From positions 2,983,785-3,047,784 of the forward strand of contig NZ_CP076326.1 in the NCBI RefSeq assembly GCF_018771565.1: a DNA stretch of 64,000 nucleotides, read 5' to 3'. Below, piece after piece: positions 8,997 to 33,220 of this stretch. The position numbers were made by a program, and so were the translations under genes. The notes below the pieces were generated by a model that was given only the letters and a program-made list of their open reading frames with translations, ran no database searches and was not told the origin of the DNA. This DNA is from Thermoflexus hugenholtzii. GTDB lineage: Bacteria > Chloroflexota > Anaerolineae > Thermoflexales > Thermoflexaceae. How positions within the stretch are numbered: position 1 is the first letter of the stretch; every line of letters starts with the position of its first letter.

Positions 8997-9920
8997 CTAT
9001 CCCCAGGCGACGGCCTCGCAGACCAGCGCGGCCAGGGCCTCGATCAGGAGCGGATCGTCGTTGAGGGAGCGGGTGCGCCGGAAATCCAGCCCCCACCGCG
9101 CCGCCGCCTCCCGGGCCTCCACGTCCAGATCGTAGAGGATCTCCAGGTGGTCCGCCACGAAGCCGATGGGGCAGACCACCACGTGCCGGGCCTCCCCTTT
9201 GCGGGCGATGTCCTCCAGGACCTCCCGGAGATCCGGACCCAGCCACGGCTCGCCGGTGGCGCTGGCGCTCTGGTAGGCGAAGCGCCATCGTGTCGACCCC
9301 ACCATCCGGGCCACCCGCCGCGCCGAGTCCAGCAGCTCGACCTCGTAGGGGTCCCCTTCCGCGCGCAGCCGGGCCGGGAGGCTATGGGCGGTGAAGATCA
9401 CCTCGGTCGCGTCCGCGGGCAGATCCGCCAGGGCCTCCCGCAGGCGCTCCGCCACGGCCATGAGGAACAGCGGATGATCGCCCCAGCCCCCGATCTCCAC
9501 CACGGGGAGGACAGCGGCATGGGCGGCGAGGGCCCGGCGCATCGCGGCGTGGTAGGCGCCCACGCTCATGCGGGAGAAATGCGGCGCCAGCGCCAGGGCG
9601 ATCAGGCGGTCGATGCCTTCCCTCACCAGCCCGGAGACGGCTTCTTCGATAAACGGAGGCGCGTGGCGCATGCCGACCCGAACGTGGAAAGAGTGGCCGA
9701 GGGCGATCCGGGCCAGCCGGGCCGCCAGGGCCTCGGCCTGCCGGAGCGTGATCTCCAGAAGGGGGGAACGCCCGCCGATGCGCTGGTAGCGCGTCCGCAG
9801 TTCCTCCACCTGGCCCGGCGACGGCGGACGTCCTCCCCGGATATGGGTGTAGTAGGCCTCCACCTCCTCCAGCGAGGAGGGCGTCCCATAGGCCATCAAC
9901 AGCACGCCGATGCGGGCCAT
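8997..9920 (-). CDS. hemH: Ferrochelatase, probably coproporphyrin III ferrochelatase
   Basis: A 307-aa class II chelatase that inserts Fe2+ into a porphyrin. It shows GVLLMAYGTP at the N-terminus, HIRGGRPPS, the signature FTAHSLPARL with the metal-side His, and VCPIGFVADHLEILYDLDVEA with the conserved Glu. The latter form matches Gram-positive enzymes now called CpfC. Because chdC is in the same operon and no hemN or hemF is present, coproporphyrin III is the likely substrate. Last gene of the ten-gene heme operon, 21 bp after the oxidase gene. Confidence 0.92.
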   Translation of the reverse strand: MARIGVLLMAYGTPSSLEEVEAYYTHIRGGRPPSPGQVEELRTRYQRIGGRSPLLEITLRQAEALAARLARIALGHSFHVRVGMRHAPPFIEEAVSGLVREGIDRLIALALAPHFSRMSVGAYHAAMRRALAAHAAVLPVVEIGGWGDHPLFLMAVAERLREALADLPADATEVIFTAHSLPARLRAEGDPYEVELLDSARRVARMVGSTRWRFAYQSASATGEPWLGPDLREVLEDIARKGEARHVVVCPIGFVADHLEILYDLDVEAREAAARWGLDFRRTRSLNDDPLLIEALAALVCEAVAWG

Positions 9921-9941: not shown

Positions 9942-11351
9942 TCAGCGCGGGGGTCCCGAAGGGCCCATCTCCTCCCCCAGGAGGAGCCGGACTGCCTCTC
10001 GAGCCTGCCGGATGAGATCGGGGATGCCCACGCCCCGGTAAGAAGCGCCGATGAGGCACAGGCGGGGGAAGGGGCGCAGCGCCGCCTCGATGGCGGCCAG
10101 GCGCTCCAGGTGCCCCACGGTATACTGGGGCATCCCCTCCGGCCAGCGGTGCACCCAGGCGCGGAGCGGACTCCCCTGCAGGCCCAGGAGCGGGCGCAGG
10201 GCCTCCACCGCCATCCGGATCAGCTCAGGGTCCTCCAGCGCGAGGGCATCGGCATCCCCCGCCCGACCGATGAAGGCGCGCAGCAGGACGCAGCCTTCCG
10301 ACGCCCGCCCCGGCCACTTCGAGGACGTCCATGTGCATCCGGCCAGCGGGAAGGCCTCCCCCCGGGGCACCAGGAAGCCGCTCCCATTCAGCGGATGGGC
10401 CACCTGCTCCCGTCGGAAGGCCAGGGTGATCACTGCGGTGGACACGAAGGGGATCTCCCGCAGCCGCGCGGTGGCCTCGGGGGCGAAGGGGGCCAGCCAC
10501 CGCGCCGCCTCGAAGGCCGGGACGGCCAGCACCACCCCGTCGGCCTCCAGCGTCTCTCCGTCCGCCATCGCCGCCAGATAGCGGAAAGCGGGGCCTTCGC
10601 GGCGCGGGGCCAGGCCGATGACCGCGCGCCCGGTGAGGATGCGGGTTCGCTGAAGGGAAGCGGCCAGCCGGTCCACCAGCGCCTCCATGCCCGCGCGCAG
10701 GGAGACGAACGCCGGGCCGGAGGGTGCAGCGGGGCGAGCGGCCCGCAGCCCCCGGGCCAGGCTGCCGAAGCGCCGCTCCAGGGCGAGGAGATGGGGATAA
10801 AGCGCCTGCGCGCTCAGGCGCTCGGGATCCCCCGCATGGACCCCTGCTGTCAGCGGCTCCGCGATGGCCTCGGCGAAGGCGCGGCCGAAACGGCGGCGCA
10901 GGAAGGCCGCCAGGGGCTCGTCGCCGTCCTCCCGGCGCGGCGGCACCCACGGCTCCAGCAGCGCCCGAAGTCGTCCCCGCCATGGGAGGCCTCCCGCCCG
11001 CAGCACCGCCATCGGATCGGGCCGAAGGGCCAGCAGCGCCTCCGGGATCGGATGAAGCCGGCCCCGGCGCAGCACATACACCGCGCGCGCCCGGGGGGGC
11101 ACTGCCTCGCTTTCCAGTCCCAGCGCGCGCAGCAACGCCATCCCCTCGGGCTTCGCCCGGAGGAACGAATCCGGCCCTCCCTCGACGATGAATCCTTCCT
11201 CCCGCAGCGTGAGGATCTTCCCGCCCAGGCGCGAAGCCCGTTCGACCAGGAAGATCTCGACCGGCCCGCCTCCCGGGGCCATCGCGCGCTCCAGAAAATA
11301 CGCCGCGCTCAGCCCGGCGATCCCCCCACCGACGATCACCACGCGCATCAT
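9942..11351 (-). CDS. hemY: Protoporphyrinogen/coproporphyrinogen oxidase (HemY/CgoX type)
   Basis: A 469-aa FAD flavoprotein. The N-terminal Rossmann motif VVIVGGGIAGLSAAYFLERA binds FAD, followed by LVERASRLGGKILT and GGPDSFLRAKPEG; the C-terminal IGASYRGVGIPDLIRQ closes the FAD site. In a coproporphyrin-dependent pathway it oxidises coproporphyrinogen III to coproporphyrin III using O2. The start codon (ATGATG at 11351/11348) overlaps the hemE stop, with GGGAGG just upstream; either ATG could be used. Confidence 0.9.
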   Translation of the reverse strand: MMRVVIVGGGIAGLSAAYFLERAMAPGGGPVEIFLVERASRLGGKILTLREEGFIVEGGPDSFLRAKPEGMALLRALGLESEAVPPRARAVYVLRRGRLHPIPEALLALRPDPMAVLRAGGLPWRGRLRALLEPWVPPRREDGDEPLAAFLRRRFGRAFAEAIAEPLTAGVHAGDPERLSAQALYPHLLALERRFGSLARGLRAARPAAPSGPAFVSLRAGMEALVDRLAASLQRTRILTGRAVIGLAPRREGPAFRYLAAMADGETLEADGVVLAVPAFEAARWLAPFAPEATARLREIPFVSTAVITLAFRREQVAHPLNGSGFLVPRGEAFPLAGCTWTSSKWPGRASEGCVLLRAFIGRAGDADALALEDPELIRMAVEALRPLLGLQGSPLRAWVHRWPEGMPQYTVGHLERLAAIEAALRPFPRLCLIGASYRGVGIPDLIRQAREAVRLLLGEEMGPSGPPR

Positions 11352-12394
11352 GGCCCTCCCTGGAGATCCCCTCGATAGGCATGCACCCAGTCCACCAGGC
11401 GGGCCACGGTGTCCGGCGGGGTCTCCGGCAGCAGCCCGTGGCCGGTGTTGAAGATGTGGCCGGGCCGGCCGCCTGCCTGCCGCAGGATCCGCTCCGCATG
11501 GGCGGCCACCACCTCGAAAGGCGCCAGCAGCACCGCCGGATCCAGGTTTCCCTGGAGGGCCACCCGATCCCCCAGGCGCGCCCACGCCACGTCCAGCGGC
11601 ACCCGCCAGTCGAGCCCGATCACGGACGCCCCGGCCTCCGCCAGATCCTCCAGCAGGGCCGCCGTCCCGGTCCCGAAGAGGATCAGCGGGATCCCGGCCG
11701 GCTGCAGGGCTTCCAGCAAGCGGCGCAGGTAAGGCCGAACGAAGGCCCGGTAGTCCAGAGGGTGGAGGAGGCCGATCCAGCTCTCGAAGATCTGGAGGGC
11801 GTGGACGCCGGCGGCGATCTGGGAGCGAGCGTAGCGGATCAGGCTTTCCGTCAGGCGCTCCATCAGGGCGTGCCAGGTGGCCGGCGCGGCGAACATCAGG
11901 GCCCGCGCCCGGGCGAAATCCCGCGCCGCCCGACCCTCCACCAGGTAGCAGGCCAGGGTGAAAGGCCCTCCCAGGAACCCGATGAGCGGCACGGTGAGCT
12001 CCGCCCGCAGCATGCGGATGGCCTCCAGGACGAAGGGGACGTCCGCCTCGGGCTCCAGGGTCCGCAGGCGGACCACATCCGCATCCCGGCGGAGGGGGGA
12101 TTCGATCACCGGGCCGGAGCCCTCCTCCAGGGCGAGGGAGATACCCATGCCCAGGAGGGGGATGGTCAGGTCCGAGAACAGGATGGCCGCGTCGACGGCA
12201 AAGCGCCGCAGGGGCAGGAGGGTGATCTCCACGGCCAGCTCCGGCTGGCGACAGAGATCCAGGAAGGCATACCGTTCCCGCATGGCGCGGTATTCGGGAA
12301 GATAGCGGCCGGCCTGCCGCATGAACCAGACCGGGGTGGCGTCCACCGGCTCTCGACGGCAGGCCCGCAGGAAGCGGTCGTTAAACGCCGCCAC
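11348..12394 (-). CDS. hemE: Uroporphyrinogen decarboxylase
   Basis: A 348-aa cofactor-free barrel that removes four carboxyls from uroporphyrinogen III to give coproporphyrinogen III. Signature PVWFMRQAGRYLPEYRAMRE lies at residues ~21-40, with the invariant Arg and the ILFSDLTIPLLGMG segment near 92-105. FLGGPFTLACYLVEG and HIFNTGHGLLPETP near the C-terminus are also typical. It overlaps hemL upstream by 14 bp and the oxidase gene downstream by 4 bp, so translation of the block is coupled. Confidence 0.95.
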   Translation of the reverse strand: MAAFNDRFLRACRREPVDATPVWFMRQAGRYLPEYRAMRERYAFLDLCRQPELAVEITLLPLRRFAVDAAILFSDLTIPLLGMGISLALEEGSGPVIESPLRRDADVVRLRTLEPEADVPFVLEAIRMLRAELTVPLIGFLGGPFTLACYLVEGRAARDFARARALMFAAPATWHALMERLTESLIRYARSQIAAGVHALQIFESWIGLLHPLDYRAFVRPYLRRLLEALQPAGIPLILFGTGTAALLEDLAEAGASVIGLDWRVPLDVAWARLGDRVALQGNLDPAVLLAPFEVVAAHAERILRQAGGRPGHIFNTGHGLLPETPPDTVARLVDWVHAYRGDLQGGP

Positions 12395-13676
12395 GGGTCA
12401 CCTCCCGAAACGCTGCGCGCGCCGCCCGCAGGGTGCGCGCGATGTGATCATCGGTGTGGGCGGCGGAGACGAACCACGCCTCCAGGGGGGAGGGAGGCAG
12501 GTAGACCCCGCGAGCCAGCATCGCGTGGAAGAAGCGGGCGTAGCGGGCGCGGTCGGTGGCGGAGGCCGTCGCGAAATCCACCACCTCGGCCTCGGTGAAG
12601 AAGACGCTGAGCATGGAGCCCACCCGGTGGATGCGGACCGGCACGCCCGCCTCCTCGGCGGCGGCCCGCAGGCCCTCCGCCAGATGTGCGGCGAGCTCCT
12701 CCAGCTGCTGGTAAAGGGCCGGGGTGAGCTGCTCCAGGGTGGCCCGCCCGGCGGCCATCGAGAGGGGATTGCCCGAGAGGGTGCCGGCCTGATACACCGG
12801 GCCCACCGGCGCCACCAGGTCCATCAGGTCCGCCCGTCCCCCGTAGGCCCCGATGGGCAGCCCCCCGCCGATGATCTTCCCCAGGCAGGTGAGGTCCGAC
12901 TTTATCTCGTAAAGCCCCTGGGCGCCGCCCGGGCCGACCCGGAAGCCGGTGATCACCTCATCGAAAACGAGCAGCGCCCCGTGGCGGCGGGTGAGGTCCC
13001 GCAGTCCCTCCAGGAAGCCGGGCTTCGGCGGGACCACCCCCATGTTCCCCGCCACTGGCTCCACGATCACCGCGGCGATCTGATCGGGGAACCGCTCGAA
13101 GAGGGCGGCCACGGCCTCCAGATCGTTGTAGGGCGCCACCAGGGTGTCCTGGACCCAGGCGGAGGGGACGCCGGCGCTGGCGGGGAGCCCGAAGGTGGCC
13201 AGCCCCGAGCCCGCCCGGGCCAGCAGGAAATCCGCATGCCCGTGGTAGGCCCCCTCGAACTGGATGATCTTCGAGCGGCCGGTCGCCGCCCGGGCCACCC
13301 GCAGCGCGCTCATCGTCGCCTCGGTCCCCGAGTTCACAAATCGAATTTTTTCGATGGAAGGGAAGGCCTCCCGGATGCGGAGGGCCAGCGCCAGCTCGGC
13401 CTCGGTGGGGGCGCCGAAGCTGGTTCCGCGTCGGATCGCCTCCCGCAGGGCGCGGACCACCGCCGGATGCGCATGGCCCAGGATCAGCGCGCCCCACGAG
13501 CCCACGTAGTCGATGTAGCGATTGCCGTCCACATCGTAGAGGTAAGCCCCCTTCCCGCGGGCGATGAAGCGGGGCGTGCCTCCCACCGCCCGGAAAGCCC
13601 GCACCGGGCTCGAGACCCCTCCGGGCATCACGGTTTGGGCCAGGGCGAAAAGCTGCTCCGAACGCTCGGCCTGCAT
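12381..13676 (-). CDS. hemL: Glutamate-1-semialdehyde 2,1-aminomutase
   Basis: A 431-aa PLP enzyme of aminotransferase fold type I that converts glutamate-1-semialdehyde to 5-aminolevulinate. The N-terminus MPGGVSSPVRAF is diagnostic. YDVDGNRYIDYVGSWG and INPVNSGTEA-like FVNSGTEATMSA bind cofactor and substrate, LLVFDEVITGFR holds the PLP ring Asp, and CLGKIIGGGLPIGA carries the Schiff-base Lys. AAGGAGG precedes the ATG. With hemA it forms the C5 route to ALA, as expected for non-alphaproteobacteria. Confidence 0.96.
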   Translation of the reverse strand: MQAERSEQLFALAQTVMPGGVSSPVRAFRAVGGTPRFIARGKGAYLYDVDGNRYIDYVGSWGALILGHAHPAVVRALREAIRRGTSFGAPTEAELALALRIREAFPSIEKIRFVNSGTEATMSALRVARAATGRSKIIQFEGAYHGHADFLLARAGSGLATFGLPASAGVPSAWVQDTLVAPYNDLEAVAALFERFPDQIAAVIVEPVAGNMGVVPPKPGFLEGLRDLTRRHGALLVFDEVITGFRVGPGGAQGLYEIKSDLTCLGKIIGGGLPIGAYGGRADLMDLVAPVGPVYQAGTLSGNPLSMAAGRATLEQLTPALYQQLEELAAHLAEGLRAAAEEAGVPVRIHRVGSMLSVFFTEAEVVDFATASATDRARYARFFHAMLARGVYLPPSPLEAWFVSAAHTDDHIARTLRAARAAFREVTRGGV

Positions 13677-13686
13677 CGCCGCCTCC

Positions 13687-14715
13687 TTATGCCGGGAGAT
13701 ACGGGCACAGGGGATCGCTCTCCAGGGGATCCCCGGTGACGGCGTAAGCCCGGGCCCGGGATCCGCCGCAGATGGCCCGGAAAGGACAGCGCCCGCATTT
13801 CCCCTTCAGCGCGTCTGGATCCCGCAGGGCGACGAAGAGGGGATGCTCCCGATAGATGGCCACCGGGTCCTCCCGGCGCACGTTCCCCAGCGGGATGGGC
13901 AGGAAGCCCGACGGGTAGATCTCTCCGATGTGGGAGATGAACATGATGCCGTTGCCATCCCGAACCCCAAACCCGCGGCGCGCGGCGGGAGGCAGATGAC
14001 CGTTCGCCCGCTGCACCAGGACCCGACGGTAGTGATGGGCCTCGGTGGTCTTGATCTCGAAGGGCACCTGGGGGGCCAGGTCGATGAGCCAGTGCATCAG
14101 GCGTTCGCTCTCCTCCGGCGAGATCTCGCGGAGGAGCCGGCCGCGGCCGGTGGGGATCAGGAAGAAGAGGCTCCAGCGGCGGGCCCCCAGCTCCTTCACC
14201 CGCTCCACCATGGCCGGGAGATCCTCCAGGGTCTCGGCGCACACCAGGGTGTTGATCTGGAGAGGCAACCCGGCCGCTGCCGCCCAGCGGGCCGCCCGCA
14301 CGGTCTGGGCGAAGCTCCCCGGCACCCCCCGCAGGGCGTCGTGCCGCGTCGCCGTGGACCCATCCAGGCTCAGGGCCAGCATCCAGATCCCTGCGGCCTT
14401 CAGCCGGTCGATCACCGCCTCGGTGAGGGCGTAGGTGCCGCTGGGGGTCAGCGCCACCAGAAAGCCCAGGCGCCGGGCCTCCGCGATCAGATCGAAGAGA
14501 TCCGGGCGCTTCAGAGGATCCCCTCCTGTTAACACGAGGTGGGGCCGGGGATCCCCGAAGGCCGTCAGGCGCTCCAGCAGGGCGAAGCCTTCCTCCGTGG
14601 AGAGCTCCCGCGGATCCCGCTGGGGGATGGCCTCCGCCCGGCAATGCCGGCAGGCCAGATCGCACGCGCGGGTCAGCTCCCAGTAGATGAGCAACGGGCG
14701 CTCCGCGTAGCGCAT
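13687..14715 (-). CDS. Radical SAM/SPASM protein, AhbD/NirJ-like
   Basis: A 342-aa iron-sulfur enzyme. The radical-SAM cluster motif is ELTRACDLACRHCRAEA (Cys18, Cys22, Cys25), followed by LVLTGGDPLKRPDL. The C-terminal SPASM region has KCGRCPFRAICGG and a late DPLCPYLP, giving the cysteines for an auxiliary cluster. This architecture is shared with AhbD (anaerobic coproheme decarboxylase), AhbC and NirJ. It sits between chdC and hemL, 10 bp after chdC, so a role in heme synthesis is a reasonable inference: O2-independent coproheme decarboxylation or a related tetrapyrrole modification. The start at 14715 has GGAGG upstream. Exact reaction is unproven. Confidence 0.8.
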   Translation of the reverse strand: MRYAERPLLIYWELTRACDLACRHCRAEAIPQRDPRELSTEEGFALLERLTAFGDPRPHLVLTGGDPLKRPDLFDLIAEARRLGFLVALTPSGTYALTEAVIDRLKAAGIWMLALSLDGSTATRHDALRGVPGSFAQTVRAARWAAAAGLPLQINTLVCAETLEDLPAMVERVKELGARRWSLFFLIPTGRGRLLREISPEESERLMHWLIDLAPQVPFEIKTTEAHHYRRVLVQRANGHLPPAARRGFGVRDGNGIMFISHIGEIYPSGFLPIPLGNVRREDPVAIYREHPLFVALRDPDALKGKCGRCPFRAICGGSRARAYAVTGDPLESDPLCPYLPA

Positions 14716-14725
14716 GGGGCCCTCC

Positions 14726-15406
14726 TCATCCGAGCAGGTCCAGGGCCGCCTCCAGCGGCCGGTAGAGCGCGGTGAAGATGGGGGTGTCCCGCAGGGTGTA
14801 GCGGCGGGCCTCCGTGCCCCGCAGGGCCTGAACCAGGTCGGAGAACAGGACCAGGTCCTCGGCCTCATAGACCACCACGAACTCCTGGTCCTGGAGGCCG
14901 AAGGCGTAAAGCAACCACTGACGGATCGCCGGGTATTGTTTCCCCACCCGGATGTGCTCGTTCATCATCCCCTGGCGGGCGTCCTTGCTCATGAGATACC
15001 AGTCCGTCGTCTTGACGAAGGGATACACGATCAGGTAAGGTCGGCGATCCTCCTCAAAGGGGTCGATCTCCTGGGGGGAGCGCCCGGCGGCGTAGATCGA
15101 GGGGCGGGTGAAGCCCCACAGGGTCAGGACGGGCTGGACGAGCGTGCGGCAGCTGTGAACGGCCCGGGCGAACCGCTCGAAGAACCGGGTCGGGGTCTCC
15201 GTCGCCTCCACAGGCTCCGCGCTCCAGACCAGGAGATCGGCCTCGACGCGGGTGGGGAAGACCTGATACAGGTAGGCCCGGGCCGCGGCCCGGGAGATCT
15301 GCTCCCACCAGGCGGCGGCCTGCGCCCGCCGCTGGGCGGCGGGCAGCGCCCAGAAAGCTTCAGTCAAACGGAAGAAGGCGAAGTGCCCGAGCACGGTTTT
15401 CTCCAT
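14726..15406 (-). CDS. chdC: Coproheme decarboxylase (HemQ, chlorite dismutase family)
   Basis: A 226-aa protein of the dimeric alpha/beta barrel chlorite-dismutase family. In Gram-positive and related bacteria it converts Fe-coproporphyrin III to heme b using H2O2. Recognisable positions are SIYAAGRSPQ, the YPFVKTTDWYLMS segment holding the candidate catalytic Tyr, and MMNEHIRVGKQYP with the likely proximal His. VVYEAEDLVLFSDLVQALRG ends the barrel. The ATG at 15406 is chosen for GGAGAG six bases upstream; an in-frame GTG at 15427 is less likely. Its presence defines the coproporphyrin-dependent branch. Confidence 0.9.
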   Translation of the reverse strand: MEKTVLGHFAFFRLTEAFWALPAAQRRAQAAAWWEQISRAAARAYLYQVFPTRVEADLLVWSAEPVEATETPTRFFERFARAVHSCRTLVQPVLTLWGFTRPSIYAAGRSPQEIDPFEEDRRPYLIVYPFVKTTDWYLMSKDARQGMMNEHIRVGKQYPAIRQWLLYAFGLQDQEFVVVYEAEDLVLFSDLVQALRGTEARRYTLRDTPIFTALYRPLEAALDLLG

Positions 15407-15439
15407 CGCAGGCTCTCCTCCGAGCACGGTGGGGGGTCT

Positions 15440-16438
15440 TCAACGGCGCAGCCGGCGGGCGGCCTCCTTCGCGAAGTAGGTGATGATCCGGTCGGCCCCT
15501 GCCCGTTTGATGGCGATGAGGATCTCCATCATCGCCCGCTCCTCGTCCAGCCAGCCCATCTGCGCCGCCGCCTTCACCATGCTGTATTCCCCGCTCACGT
15601 TGTAAGCCGCGAGGGGGTGGTCGAAGCGCTCCCGGGCCCGACGGATCACATCCAGATACGCCAGGGCCGGCTTGACCATGATGATGTCCGCCCCCTGGGC
15701 GATATCCCGCTCGATCTCCCGCAGGGCCTCCCGGGCGTTCGGCGGGTCCATCTGGTAGCTCCGCCGGTCGCCGAAACGCGGCGCCGAGTCCGCTGCCTCG
15801 CGGAACGGCCCGTAGAAGGCGGAGGCGAACTTCGCGGAGTAGGCCATGATCCCCACGTCGACGAAGCCGGCTTCGTCGAGGGCCTCCCGGATCGCCCGGA
15901 CCTGGCCGTCCATCATGGCGCTGGGGGCCACCAGATCCGCCCCCGCCGCCGCATGGGCCAGGGCCATGCGGGCCAGCAGGGCCAGCGTGGCGTCGTTATC
16001 CACCCGGCCGTCCCGCACGATGCCGCAGTGCCCGTGGTCGGTGTAGGCGCACACGCAGACGTCGGTGATCACCACCAGCTCCGGGGCGATGGCCTTGATG
16101 CGCCGGATCGCCTGGGGCACCAGGCCGTTCTCCTCCCAGGCCTCCCGGGCCTCTGGATCCTTTCGTTCCGCCAGCCCGAAGAGCAGCACAGCGCGGATGC
16201 CCAGGCGGACGATCTCCTCGACCTCCGCCTCCAGGCGGTCGACGGTGAGACGGAACTGGCCCGGCATCGAGGAGATGGGCTCTCGGACGTTCCGCCCGGG
16301 TCGGACGAAGAGGGGATAGATGAAGTCCTCCGGCGTCAGCGAGATCTCCCGGGCCAGCGCCCGCAGCCCCTCCGTCCGGCGCAGCCGTCGCAAGCGATCG
16401 ATGGGCTCCACCCGGATGGAAGAAAGCACCTGCGCCAT
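15440..16438 (-). CDS. hemB: Porphobilinogen synthase (5-aminolevulinate dehydratase)
   Basis: A 332-aa barrel enzyme condensing two ALA molecules. The cysteine-rich zinc site is [14 protein letters not shown] near residues 125-138. [16 protein letters not shown] and [18 protein letters not shown] contain the two Schiff-base lysine regions, and [13 protein letters not shown] follows. The N-terminal [16 protein letters not shown] is typical. It lies 48 bp after hemD and 33 bp before chdC. The Cys-rich site suggests a Zn-dependent rather than Mg-only enzyme. Confidence 0.96.
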
Positions 16439-16486
16439 CTCTCACCTCCTATGGGGTTCAAGGGATCGCCGGAGGGCCGGCCCTCT

Positions 16487-17281
16487 TCAGCCCTCCGGGC
16501 TCGAAGATGGGTTCCGACCCCAGCTCTCGATCAGGGCCCGGATCAGGCCCTCCTGGGTGTGCTCCCGGGCCACTGCCGCAATCGGGAAGCCCAGGGCCAC
16601 GGCCTCGGCGGCGGTCACCGGCCCGATGCACACGGCGGGCAGGTCGGCCGGGCGGATCTCCTCCCGTTGCTCCAGCAGCCCGGCCAGGGCCCGCACGGTC
16701 GAGGGGCTGGTGAAGGTCACCCGGTGAGGCCGCGGATTGAGCGCCGTGCGCAGCGCCTCCGCATCCCCGGCGGCGGCCACCCGGTAGGCGGCCACCTCCA
16801 CCACCTCCGCCCCGCGGGCCCGCAGGCGCTCCGCCAGCTCCCGGCGGGCGATGTCGGCGCGGGGCAGCAGCACGCGGCGGCCGGCGACTTCCCCCAGCCC
16901 CTCCGCCATGGCCTCCGAGAGATAGACCGCCGGCTGGTAGGCCGCCTGCAGGCCGTAGCGTTGAAGGGCGCGGGCCGTCGCCGGGCCGATGGCCCCCAGG
17001 CGGACCCGGGCCAGCTCCGCTGGCGATCGGCCGGCGGCGATCCAGCGCTCCAGGAAAGCGTGGACCCCATTGGCGCTGGTGAAGAGGATCCAGTCGAAGG
17101 TGAGGGCCTGCCGCACGGCCTCCTCCAGGGGGCGGGGATCCTCCGGCGGCCGGATCTCGATGGCGGGAAGCAGCACCGGGATGGCGCCCAGGGCTGCCAG
17201 CTGCGCCGCCAGCCCTTCCGCCGCCGGACGGGGTCGGGTGATCAGCACGCGGCATCCCTGCAGCGGTGGCGTCCGGCTCAT
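16487..17281 (-). CDS. hemD: Uroporphyrinogen-III synthase
   Basis: A 264-aa two-domain protein that cyclises hydroxymethylbilane with inversion of ring D. The family has low conservation; supporting segments are RVLITRPRPAAEGLA, WILFTSANGVHAFLE, GAIGPATARALQRYG, VLLPRADIARRELAERL and VTFTSPSTVRALAGL. The ATG overlaps the hemC stop (ATGA), which fixes the start at 17281. Its place directly after hemC agrees with the usual hemC-hemD pairing, where rapid handover prevents non-enzymatic ring closure. Confidence 0.92.
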   Translation of the reverse strand: MSRTPPLQGCRVLITRPRPAAEGLAAQLAALGAIPVLLPAIEIRPPEDPRPLEEAVRQALTFDWILFTSANGVHAFLERWIAAGRSPAELARVRLGAIGPATARALQRYGLQAAYQPAVYLSEAMAEGLGEVAGRRVLLPRADIARRELAERLRARGAEVVEVAAYRVAAAGDAEALRTALNPRPHRVTFTSPSTVRALAGLLEQREEIRPADLPAVCIGPVTAAEAVALGFPIAAVAREHTQEGLIRALIESWGRNPSSSPEG

Positions 17282-18183
17282 CCGGCTTCCTCCAGGATCC
17301 GAATCGCCCCTTGGCTCCGGAGCCGTTCGGCCAGGGCGCGGCCCAGCTCCTCCGCGGCCTCCGCGGGTCCTTCGATCTGATCCCGGATCGCCTGCCTCCC
17401 ATCCGGGGAGATCACTAAGCCGTCCAGCCATAGGCGATCGCCTCGCACCTCGCCATAGGCGGCGATGGGGACCCGACAGCCTCCGCCCAGGGCGCGCAGG
17501 AAGGCGCGCTCAGCGGTCACCGCCCACCACGTGGGCGGATGGTTGAGGCGCTCCGCGAGGGCCTGGGCCCGCGCATCGTCCGCCCGGATTTCCACGGCGA
17601 TGGCTCCTTGCCCGGGGGCCGGGAGCACCTGATCCAGGGGGAAGATCTCCGTGATGGCCTCGCTGCGCCCCAGGCGGATCAGCCCGGCCACGGCCAGCAC
17701 GATGGCCTCGTAGCGCCCCTCCTCCAGGCGCCGCAAGCGAGTGTCCACGTTCCCGATGAGCGGGAGATAGGCCAGATCCGGCCGGAGCGCTCGCAGCTGG
17801 GCGGTGCGGCGGGGGCTGCCGGTCCCCACCCGGGCGCCAGCGGGCAGCGTCGTCCAGGTCCATCCGTTGCAGGCGATCAGGGCCTCCCGGGGATCTTCCC
17901 GTTCCAGCACGGCCGCCAGCCGCAGCCCGGGCACCGGATCCGTGGGCAGATCCTTCAAGCTGTGCACCGCCAGGTCGATCCGTCCCTCCAGAAGGGTGTG
18001 CTGGAGCTCCTTGACGAAGGCACCCCGCACCTCCCGCTGCCCGCGGTCGCCGCTGGTGTGAACGATCACGGTCTCCACCGGGATCTCCGGATGCATGGCG
18101 CGGAGCCGGCGGATCACCTGCTCGGTTTGCGCCCGGGCCAAAGCGCTGCCCCGGGTGCCCACTCGCAACGGGCGGTCGCTCAC
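17278..18183 (-). CDS. hemC: Hydroxymethylbilane synthase (porphobilinogen deaminase)
   Basis: A 301-aa enzyme polymerising four porphobilinogens. Diagnostic segments are RVGTRGSALARAQTE, AVHSLKDLPTDPVPGL, GTGSPRRTAQL and LRALGGGCRVPIAAYGE, where the Cys carries the dipyrromethane cofactor. The GTG start at 18183 overlaps the hemA stop (GTGA) and gives the family's usual N-terminus. A longer reading upstream is shadow sequence from the hemA strand. Translation is therefore coupled hemA-hemC-hemD. Confidence 0.95.
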   Translation of the reverse strand: MSDRPLRVGTRGSALARAQTEQVIRRLRAMHPEIPVETVIVHTSGDRGQREVRGAFVKELQHTLLEGRIDLAVHSLKDLPTDPVPGLRLAAVLEREDPREALIACNGWTWTTLPAGARVGTGSPRRTAQLRALRPDLAYLPLIGNVDTRLRRLEEGRYEAIVLAVAGLIRLGRSEAITEIFPLDQVLPAPGQGAIAVEIRADDARAQALAERLNHPPTWWAVTAERAFLRALGGGCRVPIAAYGEVRGDRLWLDGLVISPDGRQAIRDQIEGPAEAAEELGRALAERLRSQGAIRILEEAG

Positions 18184-19457
18184 GGCGAGGCCCCTCCGTC
18201 CGAAGAGAAGGGATCGTCCTCCAGCTGCCACAAGGCCTGGAACAGCGCCAGGGCTTGCGGATCCCCGGCCGCCTGCTTCAGACCGATGAGGGGAGCGTGC
18301 AGCAGCTTGCGGACCAGCCGGTGGGCGAACTGCTCGATGCGGGCGCGCTGGGCGGGGGTGAGCTCTCCCAGCTTCGGCCACAGCCACGCCAGCTCCTGCT
18401 GGCGGATCGCCTCCGCCCGGCGTTCCAGGCGGGCGATGAGCGGGCCGACAGCCCGGCTCCGCTGCGCGGCCTCCCACTCCCGCACCGCTGCTTCCACCAT
18501 CGCCTCAGCCTGCGCGATCGCGGCCTCCAGCCGCTGCCGGCGCGCGTTCCCACGGGCCTGCAGATCCTCCAGGCCGATCCGATGAATGGAAGGCGGGAGC
18601 TCAGCCTGCGGGTCCACGTTCGGCGGGGCTCCCAGATCCACCAGCCACAGGGGATCCGCCGGCGCCGCGCCCCGTCCGTGCGCCACCGCGTGGAGCTCCG
18701 GGCGGGAGAGGATCGGCTGAGGGACGGCCAGGGCCATGAAGGCCACATCCGCTTCGATCAGGCTGGAGATCAGATCCGTCAGGGTCCCGGCCTCCCCGCC
18801 CGCGGGTTCGGCCAGCTGGCGCGCCCGTTCCAGGGTGCGGCTGAGCACCCGAAGGCGAAGCGGCCGGTCCCGCCCCACCGCCCGCACCACCGCGCTCCCC
18901 ATCGTCCCCGCCCCCACCACCAGGATCCGTTTGCCGGCCAGCCCCACACGTTCCCGGATCTCCTGGACGGCCAGGGCGGCCAGGGAGGAGGGGAAGCGCC
19001 CCAGGTCCGTTCGAGAACGCACCTCCCGGCCCAGGGCGATGGCCCGGTCGAACAGCGGGCCCAGGATCGCGCCGACCGTCCCGGCCTCCCGAGCGAGGGT
19101 CAGGGCTTCCCGCACCTGTCCGAGGATCTCCGGCTCGCCCACCGCGGTGGAATCCAGGCCGGCGGCCACCCGGAACAGATGACGGACGGCTGTCGATCCG
19201 GTCCATCGGGTCAAGGCGAGGGGGGATCCCATGCCCAGGGCCTGTTGCAGGAACGCGGCCGCGACGTCCGCCGCGCCGACCCCGTAGATCTCCAACCGTT
19301 CGCAGGTGCTCAGGACCACGGCTTCGGGCAATCCGCCTGCGCGCAACGCCGAAAGCCACGCCCGCACCTGCTCCGGGGGGAACCCGAATCCCCCGGCTGA
19401 AGCGTTCGCCCGCCGGTGGGTCCCCACGCCGAAGATCTCCCCGCCAGGCCCCGACAT
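18180..19457 (-). CDS. hemA: Glutamyl-tRNA reductase
   Basis: A 425-aa NADPH enzyme that reduces glutamyl-tRNA to glutamate-1-semialdehyde, the first and usually controlled step of C5 heme synthesis. VVLSTCERLEIYG contains the catalytic Cys. GSTAVRHLFRVAAGLDS, GEPEILGQVREAL and the Rossmann segment RILVVGAGTMGSAVVRA are typical. The N-terminal substrate motif is somewhat unusual (VGTHRRANASAGG rather than a SHRTAPVELRE-like run). It heads the heme operon; ATG 19457 is the best start, though the upstream SD is only G-rich. Confidence 0.93.
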   Translation of the reverse strand: MSGPGGEIFGVGTHRRANASAGGFGFPPEQVRAWLSALRAGGLPEAVVLSTCERLEIYGVGAADVAAAFLQQALGMGSPLALTRWTGSTAVRHLFRVAAGLDSTAVGEPEILGQVREALTLAREAGTVGAILGPLFDRAIALGREVRSRTDLGRFPSSLAALAVQEIRERVGLAGKRILVVGAGTMGSAVVRAVGRDRPLRLRVLSRTLERARQLAEPAGGEAGTLTDLISSLIEADVAFMALAVPQPILSRPELHAVAHGRGAAPADPLWLVDLGAPPNVDPQAELPPSIHRIGLEDLQARGNARRQRLEAAIAQAEAMVEAAVREWEAAQRSRAVGPLIARLERRAEAIRQQELAWLWPKLGELTPAQRARIEQFAHRLVRKLLHAPLIGLKQAAGDPQALALFQALWQLEDDPFSSDGGASP

Positions 19458-19492
19458 CCCCCATCCACCCCCCTCTGTCGGGATCAGGCGAA

Positions 19493-19521
19493 ATTCTATA
19501 TTTCTGTCGCTAATTAAGCAA
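19493..19521 (-). promoter_or_regulatory. Promoter of the heme operon
   Basis: On the minus strand TTGCTT (19521-19516) is separated by exactly 17 bases from TAGAAT (19498-19493), a 5/6 match to the -10 consensus. It lies ~36-64 bp upstream of hemA in an AT-rich patch unlike the surrounding sequence. The -35 hexamer is embedded in the palindrome at 19512-19533. Confidence 0.65.
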
Positions 19522-19533
19522 GTTCGCTTAATT
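19512..19533. promoter_or_regulatory. Palindromic operator candidate at the heme promoter
   Basis: A perfect inverted repeat AATTAAGC-N6-GCTTAATT (22 bp) overlaps the -35 region of the hemA promoter. Position and symmetry fit a dimeric repressor that blocks polymerase. The regulator is unknown; no regulator gene is adjacent. The rest of 19534-19731 between the divergent genes shows no further recognisable site. Confidence 0.6.
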
Positions 19534-19731
19534 TTTTGTGGACCGTGGGCTCGGCAATCGAAGCGGGCGGGGGGAGTCGGGCCGGGATCCATCGCGGGGT
19601 GGGGACCCGCGGGGGATCGCCGGTTTCGGCGATCCGGCGGATCGCCCGGACCCTGTCTGCCTGTGGTCCTGGGGGACCGGAAGGCCCTGACGATGGGGAG
19701 GATCGGGTTCGCAGAAGGCCGGTGGAGCGCA

Positions 19732-27731: not shown

Positions 27732-28857
27732 GGTAGTCACTCCTTTTGGTATTGATAATGCTTGAAGGTCAAGAACTCTTCCCAGGTCCAGATATGATCG
27801 GTCAACCCGATGGCCATCGCCGGCGTCCGCGGCCGATACCGCCGCCCCTCCGGCAGGCCCTCCCCCGCTTCCCGCAAGGCCCGATGGGGCCGCAGCCAGT
27901 TGTGCTCAAACAAACAGAGGATCACCAGCGCATCCCAGGTCCCTGTCGTCTTCGCAAAGGCATGGGTCTTACGCGTCAGCGCATTCAACCGATCGCGCAA
28001 CATGCCATTCAACCGTTCCTCATGCACCGGATAGGGGCAATCCACCGCCTCCCCAGAACCTGACGCACCTCCACGCGCACCATCCGGCCCTGATGACGAC
28101 GCTTGACCGCTTGCGTCAACCCCACCCCAGGCGTGAGCACCAGGGGCGGACGCCCCCGCTTTCCCGTCGGTTGCGCGTCCCGATAGACCTGACGAACCGC
28201 CCGTCGGTAGACCGGCCGTCCATCGCTGATCCAGATCACGCCCCTCCTGCCAGATGTGCGCTGGCGGGTCTGCGCCACCACCTTCGGCGCGACCTCATCC
28301 TCCGAAGACCCAAAGCCCCACGCCACCACAAAACGAGTCGCCCGGTCCTGGCTCAAACATCCCCAACGCGGGCCCACCCCGCCCGCCGAGGCGTCTGGAT
28401 CTCCAGCCTCTGGACACTTTTTTTGACAAACGACCAGAAAGCATCCACCTCGACCTCGCTCAAATGCAGGTCGTGGACCAGGACCTCGGTGAGGGCCTCA
28501 GCGTGTTGGGCGGCCATCCGGAGCCATCGGCCAATGGTTTCATATTTGTGGCCGGTGATCTCCTCAGCGGCGCTCAGGCTCCCCCGACGCATCACCACCA
28601 GCAGGGTGCGCGCCACTTCCGCAGGGGTCACACGCAAGCGATACATCGCCGTGCCCAGGGTAGGCCCAAACGAGCGCCCGCAGTTCCGACAGACCCAACG
28701 GGGCCGCCCACCCTTACTGCCGTTCTTTACCACATGGGTGGCCCCACAGCGAGGGCAGGGGGGGTTCTGGGAATTGGGCTTTCGATTCATCGGGCCCACC
28801 TCCGTCGGAATCTGGCCCCGATTATACCACCGAGCACTACTCAGGGGGGTGATTACC
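27732..28857 (-). mobile_element. IS1-family insertion sequence, 1126 bp, probably inactive
   Basis: Ends were fixed from sequence. The left end GGTAGTCACTCC and the inverted right end GGTAATCACCCC match at 10 of 12 positions. Both are flanked by the 8-bp direct repeat GCTTTTTG, a length typical of IS1. It carries a transposase on the minus strand with an A7 slippery site and a DDE-type domain. The intact duplication indicates insertion without later rearrangement. It lies between the REP-like cluster and the subtilase gene. Confidence 0.82.
27737..28790 (-). pseudogene. IS1-type transposase, InsA/InsB' with -1 slippery site and a further frameshift
   Basis: Frame 1 starts at ATG 28790 (GGAGGTG upstream) and encodes an InsA-like zinc finger (CPRCGATHVVKNG ... 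CRNCGRSFG) and HTH, then VDAFWSFVKK with the first Asp of DDE. At 28424-28418 the minus strand reads C-AAA-AAA-A; a -1 slip continues VKKKCPEAGDPD into the frame with RWGCLSQDRATRF and WISDGRPVY (second Asp). This mirrors programmed InsAB' fusion in IS1. A second break follows near 28054-28051, where GTTCTGGGGAGG appears to lack one G; restoring it joins VLGEAVDCPYPVHEERLNG (third acidic residue) in frame. That deletion should inactivate the enzyme. Confidence 0.78.
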
Positions 28858-28865
28858 GCTTTTTG
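28858..28865. repeat. Right target-site duplication of the IS
   Basis: GCTTTTTG, identical to 27724-27731 and adjacent to the right inverted repeat. Confidence 0.75.
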
Positions 28866-28921
28866 CATACACTTAATTTAAATGTGAGGTCAGGCCCCAT
28901 GAACTGCATCCGGAGGCGCCT

Positions 28922-31900
28922 ATGATCCTGAGAACTCTCTGGCGTGCGGTGCTTCTCCTGTCTGTGATGGGTTTAATCGCTGGCCCGACAAGCCTTCCGG
29001 TCGGTGTCCAAGCTTCCACAAAACATCTGTATTCAGCATCCGAACCGATCCCTGCACGTGCCTCCACTCCTCAGCCTCCTTCCCCTGGCCCCCGCGTCGA
29101 GACCGCCTCAGACCCCGCGTTGCGCAAGCTGGCTCCGGAGCTCCGGGCTTCGGCGCTGCGACCGACTCAGCGCTCGGTGCTGGTCAGCGTCCTGATGACC
29201 CGGGATACAGACCTCAACGGCCTGATGCGGCGAGTGATTTACAGCAAGCCTCTCAATGGCATCCGCTGGGCCATCGGTGAGGTCCTGGATACGAATCTCC
29301 GCAAGCTCGCGGGCATCCCCGGCGTGATCTCGGTGATCTCCCCGGACTCCTATCAGCCGGTGGAGGCTCCTTGGGATGACGAGGCGAAGCCGCAGCGAGA
29401 ACGGCTGACCTCAAAGGAAATCCGGTCGTTGTTGCGACAGGGCGGAAAGGAGGCGCTCCTCCGCAAACTTCAGGAGCTCCGCTCCCGAGGCGTCCCCCGG
29501 CCGCAGCCTATAAAGCCCGATCGCATCCGGCCCCAGGGAGCCCTTCCGTCCGCCGCCCCTGAATCCGGGATCCAGCCCGCTACCGTGCAAGTGAAGGACA
29601 TCCACGGCGCCTCCGCGGCATGGGCCAAGGGCTACACCGGCGCCGGGGTGACGGTCGCCGTTGTGGACACCGGGGTGGACTTCGGACATCCGGATCTTCA
29701 GGGGACGCAGGCTCGCATCTCCAGCGGCCCCTATGCCGGCTGGCCCTTCGCCTACAACACGCTATCCGGGGCCTTTTACGCCCTGGACCCCACCATGACC
29801 ATCGGGCCGGATAATTACTGGGACCTGGTCACCCTGACCTGGTTCGCTCACACCCTGCCGGTCACGGGAGCTGTATGCAACGGCGTCACATGCACCGCAG
29901 CCCTGACGCTGGACTTCACCAACGCCGCCTCGACGCTCTCCTTTGTGTGGCCTGACCGTTCCCGTAGCGGCCAGTATTACTACACGGTGCATCCAGATAT
30001 CTACCATCTGATCGCAGGCTTTTATCTTGGCCTGGGCTACGCGGCAACGGTTGGGGCCCCTGCTGTCGTCATCGTGGCTGACGAGGCCGCACCCGGCGTT
30101 TACGACACTGTGTATGTAGATGTGGATTTCGACCAGGATCTCACCGATGAGAAGCCGATGCGCAAAGGCAGTGAGCTGGCGGGAGCGGACCTCTACGATG
30201 CGGCCGGCGATCCAGGAACAGATGGCATCTGGGATCTCTCCGCGGGGATGCTGAGCTGGATCGCGGACGGAGTGAACCCGCCGCCCGGGGTCTCCGCCCT
30301 CTATCCCGGTGTGAGCGTTCCCGCCGCCGGCCGGCTGATCTCCTTCATCGGGGATGAGGACGGACACGGGACGAACTGCGCCGGCGACATCGCCGCCCAG
30401 GGCGTGATCACCGACCCCGAATGGGTTGGGCCCATCAATCCGCTTTTCGCGGGCGCGGCGAACGTCGGCGGCGCCGGCGGGCCGGTGCTGGCCGGGATGG
30501 CCCCGAAGGCCAAGGTGGCCGCCTTCCAGAACGGCTTCAATCTCCCCTTCGACTCCTGGGCCCTGGCCGCCCTGGGCTTCGACGGCGTTCCCAACAGCGG
30601 GGACGAAGCTCAGATCATCAGCAACTCCTGGGGTGCCAGCGGCACCCTCAACGACGGCTGGGACGCGACCTCCCGCTTCGCCCACTGGCTGAACAACTAC
30701 TTCGCCCCGAACGCGGCCTTCCTGGTGGCCACCGGCAACGGTGGCCACGGCTACGGCACGGTGACGGAGCCCGATGGCAGCTCTATCATTGATGTGGGCG
30801 CCAGCACCTCCTATGGCTCGCTGGTTTATTTCGAGCTCGTCACCCCTGACCAGTTCACCTACGGCGACGTCCAGCCTTGGTCCAACCGCGGCCCTACCAC
30901 CCTGGGGGACGTCTCGCCGGACGTGGTGGCCGTGGGGGCCTGGGGTACCGGCGCTAACCCGTTGAACCTTTACTACGGCAACGGCCAGGCCGCCTATGAC
31001 ATCTTCGGCGGCACCTCTATGGCCACGCCCATCGCCGCGGGGAACCTGGCTCTGGTCTACCATGCCTTCCGCGCCAAACACGGCCGCTGGCCGACATGGC
31101 AGGAGGCGAAGGCCATCTTCCTCAACGGCGCCCACGATCTGGGCTATGATGTGCTGACCCAGGGCTCGGGCAATGTGGACGCCAACCGGGCCACGGATAT
31201 CGCGGCGGGGATGAACTACGGCTACTGGGTGGAGCCGGCCCAGTGGATGGCCGGAAATTACCGGGGCATCGAATACGCTGCCTTCCCGGCGATCGTGCTC
31301 CCGGGCCAGACCGTTACCAAGACCTTCACCGTTCGCAACCCCACGGGCGTGCCGTTCTCGGTCAGCCTGCAGGACGTGACGCTCCAGAAGGTCGCCGAGA
31401 TCACCTTCACCCTCTCCTTCCCGTCCTTCAGCCCGCCGCCCTTCACCCGCCCCACCTGGATCACGGACATCACTCCTCTCATCGAAGCCTATGATCCGGA
31501 TCTGGTGCGGGCCCAGGTGATCTTCCCCTACAGCGTGTTCGACACCGATGCCAACTACGCTTACGATGACCGCTGGCGGGTTCTCTTCTACGACTGGACC
31601 GATCTAAATGGGGACGGGAACCTTTGGACGGATAACAACGGGAACGGCCGGGTGGATGCGGGGGAGATCGATGTCGTCAGTGGCATCTACGAATATAACC
31701 GCTTCACATACGGCTATCCCAGCGGCACTTACCTGGAGGCCAGCCTGGGCCGCGACAGCCTGTCCCGCCGCCACGACGGCGTCTTCTTCGGCGTCCAGCG
31801 GCGCACCGGCTCCGATGCGGTCACCATGCAGGTGCGCATCACTTTCTACAAGAAAGCCGACTGGGGCTGGCTGAGCCTCTCGGCTTCCAGCGTGAGCCTG

Positions 31901-33220
31901 CCGGCGAGTGGGAGCGCCACCTTTAACGCCACTCTTGCGGTGCCCGCCACGGCGCGGCCGGGCGTCTACGAAGGCGCCATCGAGGTGCGCCACGGCCCGC
32001 ACAAGCACGTGATCCCGGTGGTGGCGCACGTGGCGGCCAGCGGGCCCACGTTCGATTTCGGAGCTGCCTCCCTGACGGAGCCCATCGGCAACCAGCCCTA
32101 CGACAACGGCCATCTCTTCGGCGGCTTCGACTGGGCCTGGCGCTACGAGTCCGGGGACTGGAAGCTCTACTACTTCGACATCCCGGACGGCACCGCTGCC
32201 CCGGGCAAGGCGATGGTTGTGGACACCCGCTGGGTCACGGTGCCCACCGATGTGGACACCTGGATCTTCGGCCGCGCCGTCGATTTCTACTCCACGCTGG
32301 ATCCCACTTTCTTCGGCCCCCAGAGCGTGGAGCTGGTGGGTGGAAGCACCGACACTTATATCGGCAGCGGCCGGTTCGTCTTCAACACCGCCACCGGTGG
32401 GCCACGGGAGATCGTGGCCGGGGAACTGCGTGACGGCCTGGGCTTCCTGGCGCTGCATAATGTCCTCTACGCCGGGACGCAGTTCGGCGAGCCCCTCGTG
32501 GGGGCCGCCTATGCGGTCCAGGCCCTTCCGTTCCCGGTGGTGATCACCACGCCGGTTACCTTTGGGAGCTGGACCCAGGTCTTCTCCACCACCCGCACGA
32601 TCCCGGAGGGCATCCAGGTCCTGGCCTTCGGCCTGAGCCAGCCCACAGTGCTCCTCAACCAGACGGCTGTCCAGGATAATCCCAACAACCCGTGCACGGC
32701 CAGCTGGGTGATCTCGCAGACCATCAGCAACGGCGGGCTGCTGGAGGCGACCACGGCCAGCGCGGCGGCTGGGCTCGACATCGACCTCTACATCTACAAG
32801 GACGATGGCGATGGCGTCTTCGAATGCGGGACCCAGGATGCCTTGCTTGCATCGTCCACCACACCCACGGCCTTTGAGCGGGTCCGCATCACCCTGCCGC
32901 CGGATGGCCGCTATTGGATCACCGTCCACGGCTGGAACGTGCCCGGCGGGAGCCAGCCTTTCGATATCACCATCAACGCCATCCAGGGGACGGACCTGAT
33001 GGTCAGTGGGGTGCCGTCGGGCCCGGTGATGGCGGGAACCCCGGTGAGCTTCCAGGTTTCGTTCTCCAAGGCGGTCACCCCGCCGGCCACCTACTACGGC
33101 CTGCTCTTCATCGGCCCGGCTCCGGCCCCCACGGCCCTCCAGGTCCCGGTCACCATCCGCTTCGTGCCCACGGCGGCCACCCTCTACCTGCCGCTGGTCA
33201 TGAAGAACGCCGGGCCATGA
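28922..33220 (+). CDS. Large secreted subtilisin-family (S8) serine protease
   Basis: A 1432-aa exported protein with a signal peptide over residues ~1-31. A propeptide-like region runs to ~200. The catalytic triad is Asp249 in VAVVDTGVDFGHPDL, His482 in DEDGHGTNCAGD and Ser699 in GGTSMATPIAAG, with the oxyanion Asn in ISNSWG. The Asp-His interval of 233 residues is far larger than in subtilisins and indicates an inserted domain. Downstream are beta-rich regions, a DLNGDGNLWTDNNGNG acidic loop that may bind Ca2+, and a pre-peptidase-C-like domain (~1260-1350). It ends in LYLPLVMKNAGP, a tail style I associate with Chloroflexota surface proteins. GGAGG precedes the ATG; a strong terminator follows. 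Confidence 0.92.
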   Translation: MILRTLWRAVLLLSVMGLIAGPTSLPVGVQASTKHLYSASEPIPARASTPQPPSPGPRVETASDPALRKLAPELRASALRPTQRSVLVSVLMTRDTDLNGLMRRVIYSKPLNGIRWAIGEVLDTNLRKLAGIPGVISVISPDSYQPVEAPWDDEAKPQRERLTSKEIRSLLRQGGKEALLRKLQELRSRGVPRPQPIKPDRIRPQGALPSAAPESGIQPATVQVKDIHGASAAWAKGYTGAGVTVAVVDTGVDFGHPDLQGTQARISSGPYAGWPFAYNTLSGAFYALDPTMTIGPDNYWDLVTLTWFAHTLPVTGAVCNGVTCTAALTLDFTNAASTLSFVWPDRSRSGQYYYTVHPDIYHLIAGFYLGLGYAATVGAPAVVIVADEAAPGVYDTVYVDVDFDQDLTDEKPMRKGSELAGADLYDAAGDPGTDGIWDLSAGMLSWIADGVNPPPGVSALYPGVSVPAAGRLISFIGDEDGHGTNCAGDIAAQGVITDPEWVGPINPLFAGAANVGGAGGPVLAGMAPKAKVAAFQNGFNLPFDSWALAALGFDGVPNSGDEAQIISNSWGASGTLNDGWDATSRFAHWLNNYFAPNAAFLVATGNGGHGYGTVTEPDGSSIIDVGASTSYGSLVYFELVTPDQFTYGDVQPWSNRGPTTLGDVSPDVVAVGAWGTGANPLNLYYGNGQAAYDIFGGTSMATPIAAGNLALVYHAFRAKHGRWPTWQEAKAIFLNGAHDLGYDVLTQGSGNVDANRATDIAAGMNYGYWVEPAQWMAGNYRGIEYAAFPAIVLPGQTVTKTFTVRNPTGVPFSVSLQDVTLQKVAEITFTLSFPSFSPPPFTRPTWITDITPLIEAYDPDLVRAQVIFPYSVFDTDANYAYDDRWRVLFYDWTDLNGDGNLWTDNNGNGRVDAGEIDVVSGIYEYNRFTYGYPSGTYLEASLGRDSLSRRHDGVFFGVQRRTGSDAVTMQVRITFYKKADWGWLSLSASSVSLPASGSATFNATLAVPATARPGVYEGAIEVRHGPHKHVIPVVAHVAASGPTFDFGAASLTEPIGNQPYDNGHLFGGFDWAWRYESGDWKLYYFDIPDGTAAPGKAMVVDTRWVTVPTDVDTWIFGRAVDFYSTLDPTFFGPQSVELVGGSTDTYIGSGRFVFNTATGGPREIVAGELRDGLGFLALHNVLYAGTQFGEPLVGAAYAVQALPFPVVITTPVTFGSWTQVFSTTRTIPEGIQVLAFGLSQPTVLLNQTAVQDNPNNPCTASWVISQTISNGGLLEATTASAAAGLDIDLYIYKDDGDGVFECGTQDALLASSTTPTAFERVRITLPPDGRYWITVHGWNVPGGSQPFDITINAIQGTDLMVSGVPSGPVMAGTPVSFQVSFSKAVTPPATYYGLLFIGPAPAPTALQVPVTIRFVPTAATLYLPLVMKNAGP

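Follow-up and report, generated by a model that had tools for sequence, protein, structure and literature searches.

A TIGR04053-family radical SAM protein encoded beside ChdC in Thermoflexus hugenholtzii as a candidate oxygen-independent coproheme decarboxylase

Why would a single heme operon encode two candidate enzymes for the same last step? The question is raised by a 64,000-nucleotide stretch of the Thermoflexus hugenholtzii genome (contig NZ_CP076326.1, forward-strand positions 2,983,785 to 3,047,784; hereafter the window), taken from an assembly that consists of a single 3.3 Mb contig (G000 below; G and L numbers are our handles for genomes and loci). On its minus strand the window carries a heme operon with the gene order hemA-C-D-B-chdC-rSAM-hemL-E-Y-H, in which the gene for a coproheme decarboxylase (ChdC) lies next to that for a radical S-adenosylmethionine (SAM) protein of family TIGR04053, referred to here as rSAM. 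A sequence-only reading had taken the pair as two candidate coproheme decarboxylases, ChdC and an AhbD/NirJ-like enzyme. Comparative analysis leads us to regard rSAM as probably an oxygen- and peroxide-independent, AhbD-type coproheme decarboxylase and a backup to ChdC, with a probability of about 0.88. The AhbD assignment is supported by the tree, the cysteine signature, two genomic contexts and the replacement of ChdC in other genomes. The features at the centre of the question are:

14726 to 15406, minus strand: chdC (hemQ), predicted peroxide-dependent coproheme decarboxylase, 226 aa (PF06778, HemQ_actino, alignments)
14716 to 14725, minus strand: gap of 10 bp between chdC and rSAM, holding a GGAGG ribosome-binding site (sequence)
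13687 to 14715, minus strand: TIGR04053-family rSAM, 342 aa, proposed AhbD-type oxygen-independent coproheme decarboxylase (TIGR04053, tree, signature, model)

The two open reading frames are adjacent as first read, with coordinates that are exact in the sequence: chdC runs from an ATG at 15406 to a stop codon at 14726, and rSAM from an ATG at 14715 to a stop codon at 13687. The 10-bp gap leaves no room for a separate promoter, and the two genes look co-transcribed. An 888-aa plus-strand open reading frame (14714-17380) that overlies chdC and hemBD was rejected as a high-GC antisense artefact.

In profile searches, rSAM scored 476 bits against TIGR04053, above the curated cut-off of 395; NCBIfam assigns this family no function, and our literature search found neither a mention of TIGR04053 nor a function for it. 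Scores against the other models were 308 bits (AhbD), 190 (NirJ2), 171 of the 515 required (NirJ, TIGR04051) and 132 of the 650 required (AhbC, TIGR04546). The NirJ-like label thus gives way to TIGR04053 as the best family and AhbD as the next best. In a tree of 68 sequences, built by a quick method with SH-aLRT (Shimodaira-Hasegawa-like approximate likelihood ratio test) values as the only support, rSAM falls inside a fully supported TIGR04053 clade that is sister to AhbD; the two group together with a support of 100, with AhbC/NirJ1 as the outgroup. The phylogeny proposed with the sequence-only reading therefore keeps rSAM among the tetrapyrrole radical SAM clades. Haloarchaeal members, found by a scan of genomes by sequence alone, also fall inside the TIGR04053 clade and score 473-505 bits against TIGR04053 but only 333-343 bits against the AhbD model TIGR04545. 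They are 53-58% identical to rSAM, compared with 37-45% for Chloroflexota AhbD and 27-34% for AhbC.

The cysteine signature points in the same direction and comprises three features:

14641 to 14664, minus strand: CX3CX2C (C18, C22, C25), radical SAM cluster ligands (direct reading; invariant in 60/60 AhbD and TIGR04053 sequences)
13705 to 13797, minus strand: CX2CX5CX20C (C307, C310, C316, C337), ligands of the sole remaining auxiliary cluster, AuxII (invariant in 60/60)
13759 to 14043, minus strand: AuxI positions without cysteine, namely E225 (14041-14043), V251, S269 (13909-13911) and S319 (13759-13761) (alignment)

The CX3CX2C motif reported from the letters alone is present, while the SPASM-type cluster reported with it is only half there: the C-terminal four-cysteine AuxII half stands, and the cysteines of AuxI, which Chloroflexota AhbD has, are missing. 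The eight-cysteine SPASM motif is complete only in AhbD of methanogens and sulfate reducers and so does not define AhbDs, all of which have CX3CX2C and a C-terminal CX2CX5CX20-38C motif (PMC10452713). AhbD of non-methanogenic archaea has glutamate or serine at AuxI positions, with one position unconserved (Fix et al., PMC10452713). Lacking the full eight-cysteine motif, rSAM carries both AhbD-wide motifs, and its C18/22/25, C307/310/316/337 and E225/S269/S319 correspond to the non-methanogen AhbD pattern. The methanogen and sulfate-reducer type (TIGR04545, M. barkeri Mbar_A1458), which belongs to the sister clade sampled in our tree by Chloroflexota members, shares with rSAM the radical SAM motif, the C-terminal motif and, as predicted, the reaction.

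The genomic context in relatives links the family to heme synthesis by two routes. TIGR04053 was found in Chloroflexota, Armatimonadota, Acidobacteriota, haloarchaea and others. In coproporphyrin-pathway operons of Thermoflexus, HRbin23 and Armatimonadota, chdC lies directly beside the TIGR04053 gene; Candidatus Thermoflexus sinensis, the nearest named relative, has the same operon and an rSAM protein that is 86% identical. An alternative arrangement in relatives is a HemY-rSAM-HemH triad. Of the 29 Chloroflexota members above the cut-off, 15 have a heme gene no more than about 10 kb away (rough binomial P < 1e-15 at 1-3% expectation). Because it recurs in other Chloroflexota and in Armatimonadota, and because of this proximity to heme genes, the chdC-rSAM adjacency is more than chance. 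The second route is seen in G065, G137 and G089, which encode AhbA/B and AhbC, have no ferrochelatase (HemH) that we could find and contain one AhbD-like protein each; in G065 and G137 the TIGR04053 gene adjoins AhbC. Coproheme is the only intermediate ahead of heme b that the coproporphyrin and siroheme routes have in common, which makes it the economical choice of substrate. In G065 a molybdopterin oxidoreductase and a nitrate reductase-like iron-sulfur subunit are also encoded close to the TIGR04053 and AhbC-type genes (L057:9285-18283).

The replacement of ChdC is clearest in G004 (98% complete), which encodes HemE, HemY, HemH and TIGR04053, and in which the genome search found no ChdC, HemN, HemF, AhbA/B/C or heme-copper oxidase. 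A member of the same family, G063, has both ChdC and TIGR04053 together with two heme-copper oxidases. Similarly, G081 and G121 have HemE, HemH and an AhbD-type gene, and ChdC was not found in them. Across 151 Chloroflexota genomes, TIGR04053 co-occurs with ChdC in 22/29 cases (odds ratio 4, P = 0.002, uncorrected for shared ancestry). The pairing is not a strict general rule: in G024 and G026, which have HemE and HemH, the thresholds applied yielded no ChdC and no TIGR04053 (the search there did not include HemN).

Experimental precedent comes from haloarchaea. The TIGR04053 profile matches in the Haloferax volcanii control genome, and in this species the deletion of ahbD (HVO_2144) abolishes growth by denitrification or dimethyl sulfoxide (DMSO) respiration and leaves aerobic growth unaffected; added heme restores growth, fully on DMSO and partly on nitrate (PMC5746218, PMC8305020). 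Deletion of chdC (pitA) gives the opposite phenotype (PMC5746218, PMC8305020). The neighbourhood of HVO_2144 is nirK/norB (PMC5746218, PMC8305020), as around the Halobellus member, which adjoins NorB, a NirK-like multicopper oxidase and a plastocyanin-like blue-copper protein; a nitrous oxide reductase is encoded no more than 8 kb from the Halorubrum member. The Haloferax AhbD/PitA pair is thus the precedent for ChdC and AhbD in one organism, and the haloarchaeal AhbD relatives share the TIGR04053 clade and the Cys/Ser/Glu signature with rSAM. The arrangements differ, in that Haloferax has ahbD, probably anaerobically controlled, beside nirK/norB and pitA at another site, whereas the window has both genes in one operon; likewise, Haloferax coproheme is expected from the siroheme route, and that of the window operon from the coproporphyrin pathway. 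UroD and CpfC are reportedly missing from H. volcanii (PMC5746218), as is cgoX, although a HemY-like protein is encoded downstream of the AhbD-type gene at two Halolamina loci (L111:11164-12441, TIGR00562 157 bits, cut-off 98; and L127:12464-13624). A TIGR04347 'pseudo-SAM/SPASM' protein related to AhbC/NirJ1 (748 bits) is the divergent neighbour of the AhbD-type gene in Haloterrigena (L138:8247-9461).

The other enzymes of the pathway are encoded around the pair:

18180 to 19592, minus strand: hemA, glutamyl-tRNA reductase (TIGR01035, 239 bits; start uncertain)
17278 to 18183, minus strand: hemC, hydroxymethylbilane synthase (TIGR00212, 331 bits; start uncertain)
16487 to 17281, minus strand: hemD, uroporphyrinogen-III synthase (PF02602; start uncertain)
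15440 to 16438, minus strand: hemB, porphobilinogen synthase (NF006762, 510 bits)
12381 to 13676, minus strand: hemL, glutamate-1-semialdehyde aminomutase (TIGR00713, 630 bits)
11348 to 12394, minus strand: hemE, uroporphyrinogen decarboxylase (TIGR01464, 412 bits)
9942 to 11351, minus strand: hemY/cgoX, coproporphyrinogen oxidase type (TIGR00562, 270 bits)
8997 to 9920, minus strand: hemH/cpfC, ferrochelatase (TIGR00109, 242 bits)

The presence of HemE, HemY, HemH and ChdC identifies the coproporphyrin-dependent pathway in G000, together with the failure of genome searches to find HemF or HemN (for the latter only a match below the cut-off, probably HemW, at 152 of 325 bits). On our reading the operon encodes this pathway in full, with two analogous enzymes for the conversion of Fe-coproporphyrin III (coproheme) to heme b. 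The window ChdC contains the PF06778 Chlor_dismutase domain (146 bits, cut-off 25) and falls under the NCBIfam actinobacterial HemQ cut-off (114 vs 235 bits). Its Y128 aligns with the catalytic Tyr Y135 of C. diphtheriae and H151 is the proximal His, both invariant in 14 homologues. The protein belongs to the chlorite-dismutase fold family and shares the catalytic Tyr and the proximal His with ChdC of the C. diphtheriae/S. aureus type (PF06778), whereas C. diphtheriae distal His118 corresponds to Arg109 and Trp183 to Phe176. These features strongly suggest H2O2-dependent coproheme decarboxylation, which would proceed through a Tyr radical of the heme site. For rSAM, the substrate and chemistry would be those of AhbD, and its use would fall to conditions in which O2 or peroxide is scarce. 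With only 10 bp between them, chdC and rSAM are apparently transcribed together, and which enzyme acts would then be decided by cosubstrates, peroxide on one side and SAM plus low-potential electrons on the other, and not by separate promoters. We infer a redox switch of the last heme step.

The preceding oxidation was thought in the sequence-only reading to require O2 or another acceptor. This is no obstacle in principle: S. aureus CgoX is active with and without oxygen, and cgoX of L. monocytogenes and B. anthracis complements both (PMC6620371); in principle, then, CgoX could suffice for a coproporphyrin route without oxygen. CgoN (DUF1444), a dedicated oxygen-independent oxidase, was not found in 31 genomes including G000. 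T. hugenholtzii has been cultured at 1% O2, and nitrous oxide and nitrite respiration have been predicted from Thermoflexus genomes, neither of which culture has confirmed (PMC8129789).

Several points weigh against an AhbD-type function for rSAM. The literature yielded no measured activity for any bacterial TIGR04053 protein, and rSAM is under the TIGR04545 AhbD equivalog cut-off (308 vs 500 bits), as are the haloarchaeal AhbD-type proteins. Damage to the AuxI cluster of M. barkeri AhbD halts the reaction at the monovinyl intermediate (PMC10452713), and AuxI is naturally missing from the TIGR04053 family. G055 (97% complete) keeps a TIGR04053 gene, and neither ChdC nor HemH was found in its genome; several other members (in Acidobacteriota and in G119, G135 and G143) have no heme gene nearby. 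In G126 a heme-copper oxidase, heme O/A synthase and the TIGR04053 protein are encoded in what looks like one operon, and the role is therefore not strictly anaerobic. Finally, we infer the equation of HVO_2144 with TIGR04053 only from the haloarchaeal clade members and the shared neighbourhood.

The loci in G055 and G126 can be described further. The former (L052, G055:C44, 9800-12100) is an otherwise syntenic heme operon without chdC and hemH in which rSAM is kept, and G055 encodes a cytochrome cd1. In the latter (L045:5388-10145) the TIGR04053 gene follows heme-copper oxidase subunit I and a CtaA-CtaB fusion (heme A/O synthase) on the same strand, and from this context the enzyme may also serve low-oxygen respiration.

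Among the alternatives, the one that survives best is that rSAM acts on the same pathway and makes a different tetrapyrrole, such as a stable monovinyl heme (harderoheme) or another side-chain-modified heme. The loss of the AuxI cysteines, the monovinyl intermediate accumulated by the AuxI-damaged M. barkeri enzyme and the separate HemY-rSAM-HemH triad of several genomes, with its own second ferrochelatase, speak for this. However, haloarchaeal members that have lost AuxI in the same way sustain normal growth under anaerobic conditions when ChdC is missing (PMC5746218), G004 lacks any other enzyme known to make heme b, and no additional modifying enzyme is conserved beside the rSAM gene. We consider this explanation improbable, and the new tetrapyrrole modification that the sequence-only reading had thought plausible gained no positive evidence. 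Two ferrochelatase genes were observed in five Chloroflexota genomes: G079 (L055/L149), G139 (L068/L150), G105 (L063/L151), G063 (L038/L153) and G075 (L066/L155). One copy is near TIGR04053 and HemY, forming a compact HemY/rSAM/HemH triad in 4/5 and, in G075, belonging to the main heme operon; the second copy is with HemE and/or ChdC, or alone.

Two further roles are very improbable. As a HemN-like, oxygen-independent coproporphyrinogen oxidase, rSAM would produce protoporphyrinogen ahead of HemY, which would suit its place in the heme operon of a genome where HemN and HemF were not found; yet it is not of the HemN family, and this role was rejected because relatives occur with AhbA/B/C without HemH, and in haloarchaea, where coproporphyrinogen is not an intermediate. 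As a maturase of a peptide or other small substrate, comparable to PqqE-like SPASM enzymes that act on ribosomally synthesized and post-translationally modified peptides, it would be in the heme operon incidentally. The AlphaFold model (predicted local distance difference test 89, predicted template modelling score 0.88) does have SuiB, PqqE and SkfB, all SPASM enzymes, as its nearest solved folds among the matches listed. Those matches listed include no solved structure of AhbD or NirJ, so hits to such folds are to be expected for any SPASM enzyme; with the tree grouping rSAM with AhbD, and recurrent neighbours that are heme genes and not small peptides, this role was likewise rejected. A NirJ/heme d1 or AhbC/siroheme-route enzyme (TIGR04051, TIGR04054, TIGR04546) is scarcely credible in G000 and was rejected: the distant similarity (171 and 132 bits) and the similar C-terminal cysteine motif of these radical SAM tetrapyrrole enzymes are outweighed by scores far under both cut-offs, a separate AhbC/NirJ1 clade with different pathway genes, and a genome in which no cytochrome cd1 (NirS; PF02239), AhbA/B (PF17805) or AhbC/NirJ1 was found.

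Elsewhere in the window, zinc-ribbon-like open reading frames resembling insertion-sequence transposase remains (28009-28868) lie beside a 1432-aa open reading frame (28922-33220), as seen in the open reading frame list only.

The AhbD-type reading of rSAM fits a division that is already published, in which ChdC serves aerobic and AhbD anaerobic heme synthesis (PMC10548856, PMC7242693, PMC12670364, PMC5746218). Reviews name ChdC or, under anaerobic conditions, AhbD as the enzyme that decarboxylates coproheme, and state, citing Dailey 2015, that ahbD is colocalised with hemY/hemH/hemQ or with ahbA/B/C (PMC10548856, PMC7242693, PMC12670364). The published statement that coproporphyrin-pathway bacteria end with AhbD or ChdC agrees with our reading. 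Our literature search did not find the exact chdC-TIGR04053 pairing within one operon across two phyla, or genomes with TIGR04053 alone. More tentatively, and as somewhat less likely than not, we suggest that in many bacterial phyla TIGR04053 could be the coproheme decarboxylase that the coproporphyrin pathway has been missing for work without oxygen, and that in operons of this kind the peroxide/SAM switch could work without a transcriptional switch, the two enzymes being made together, selected by cosubstrate and possibly exchanging the monovinyl intermediate.

The enzyme for oxygen-free conversion of coproheme to heme has been stated as an open question for Bacillaceae (PMC10965808). The Bacillus subtilis control gave no TIGR04053 match in the family search, and that case is not solved by TIGR04053. 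For the TIGR04053-bearing bacteria considered here, a question of this type would be answered, in a form that can be tested with one operon, and several independent lines of evidence would give a function to a family that is still named only TIGR04053.
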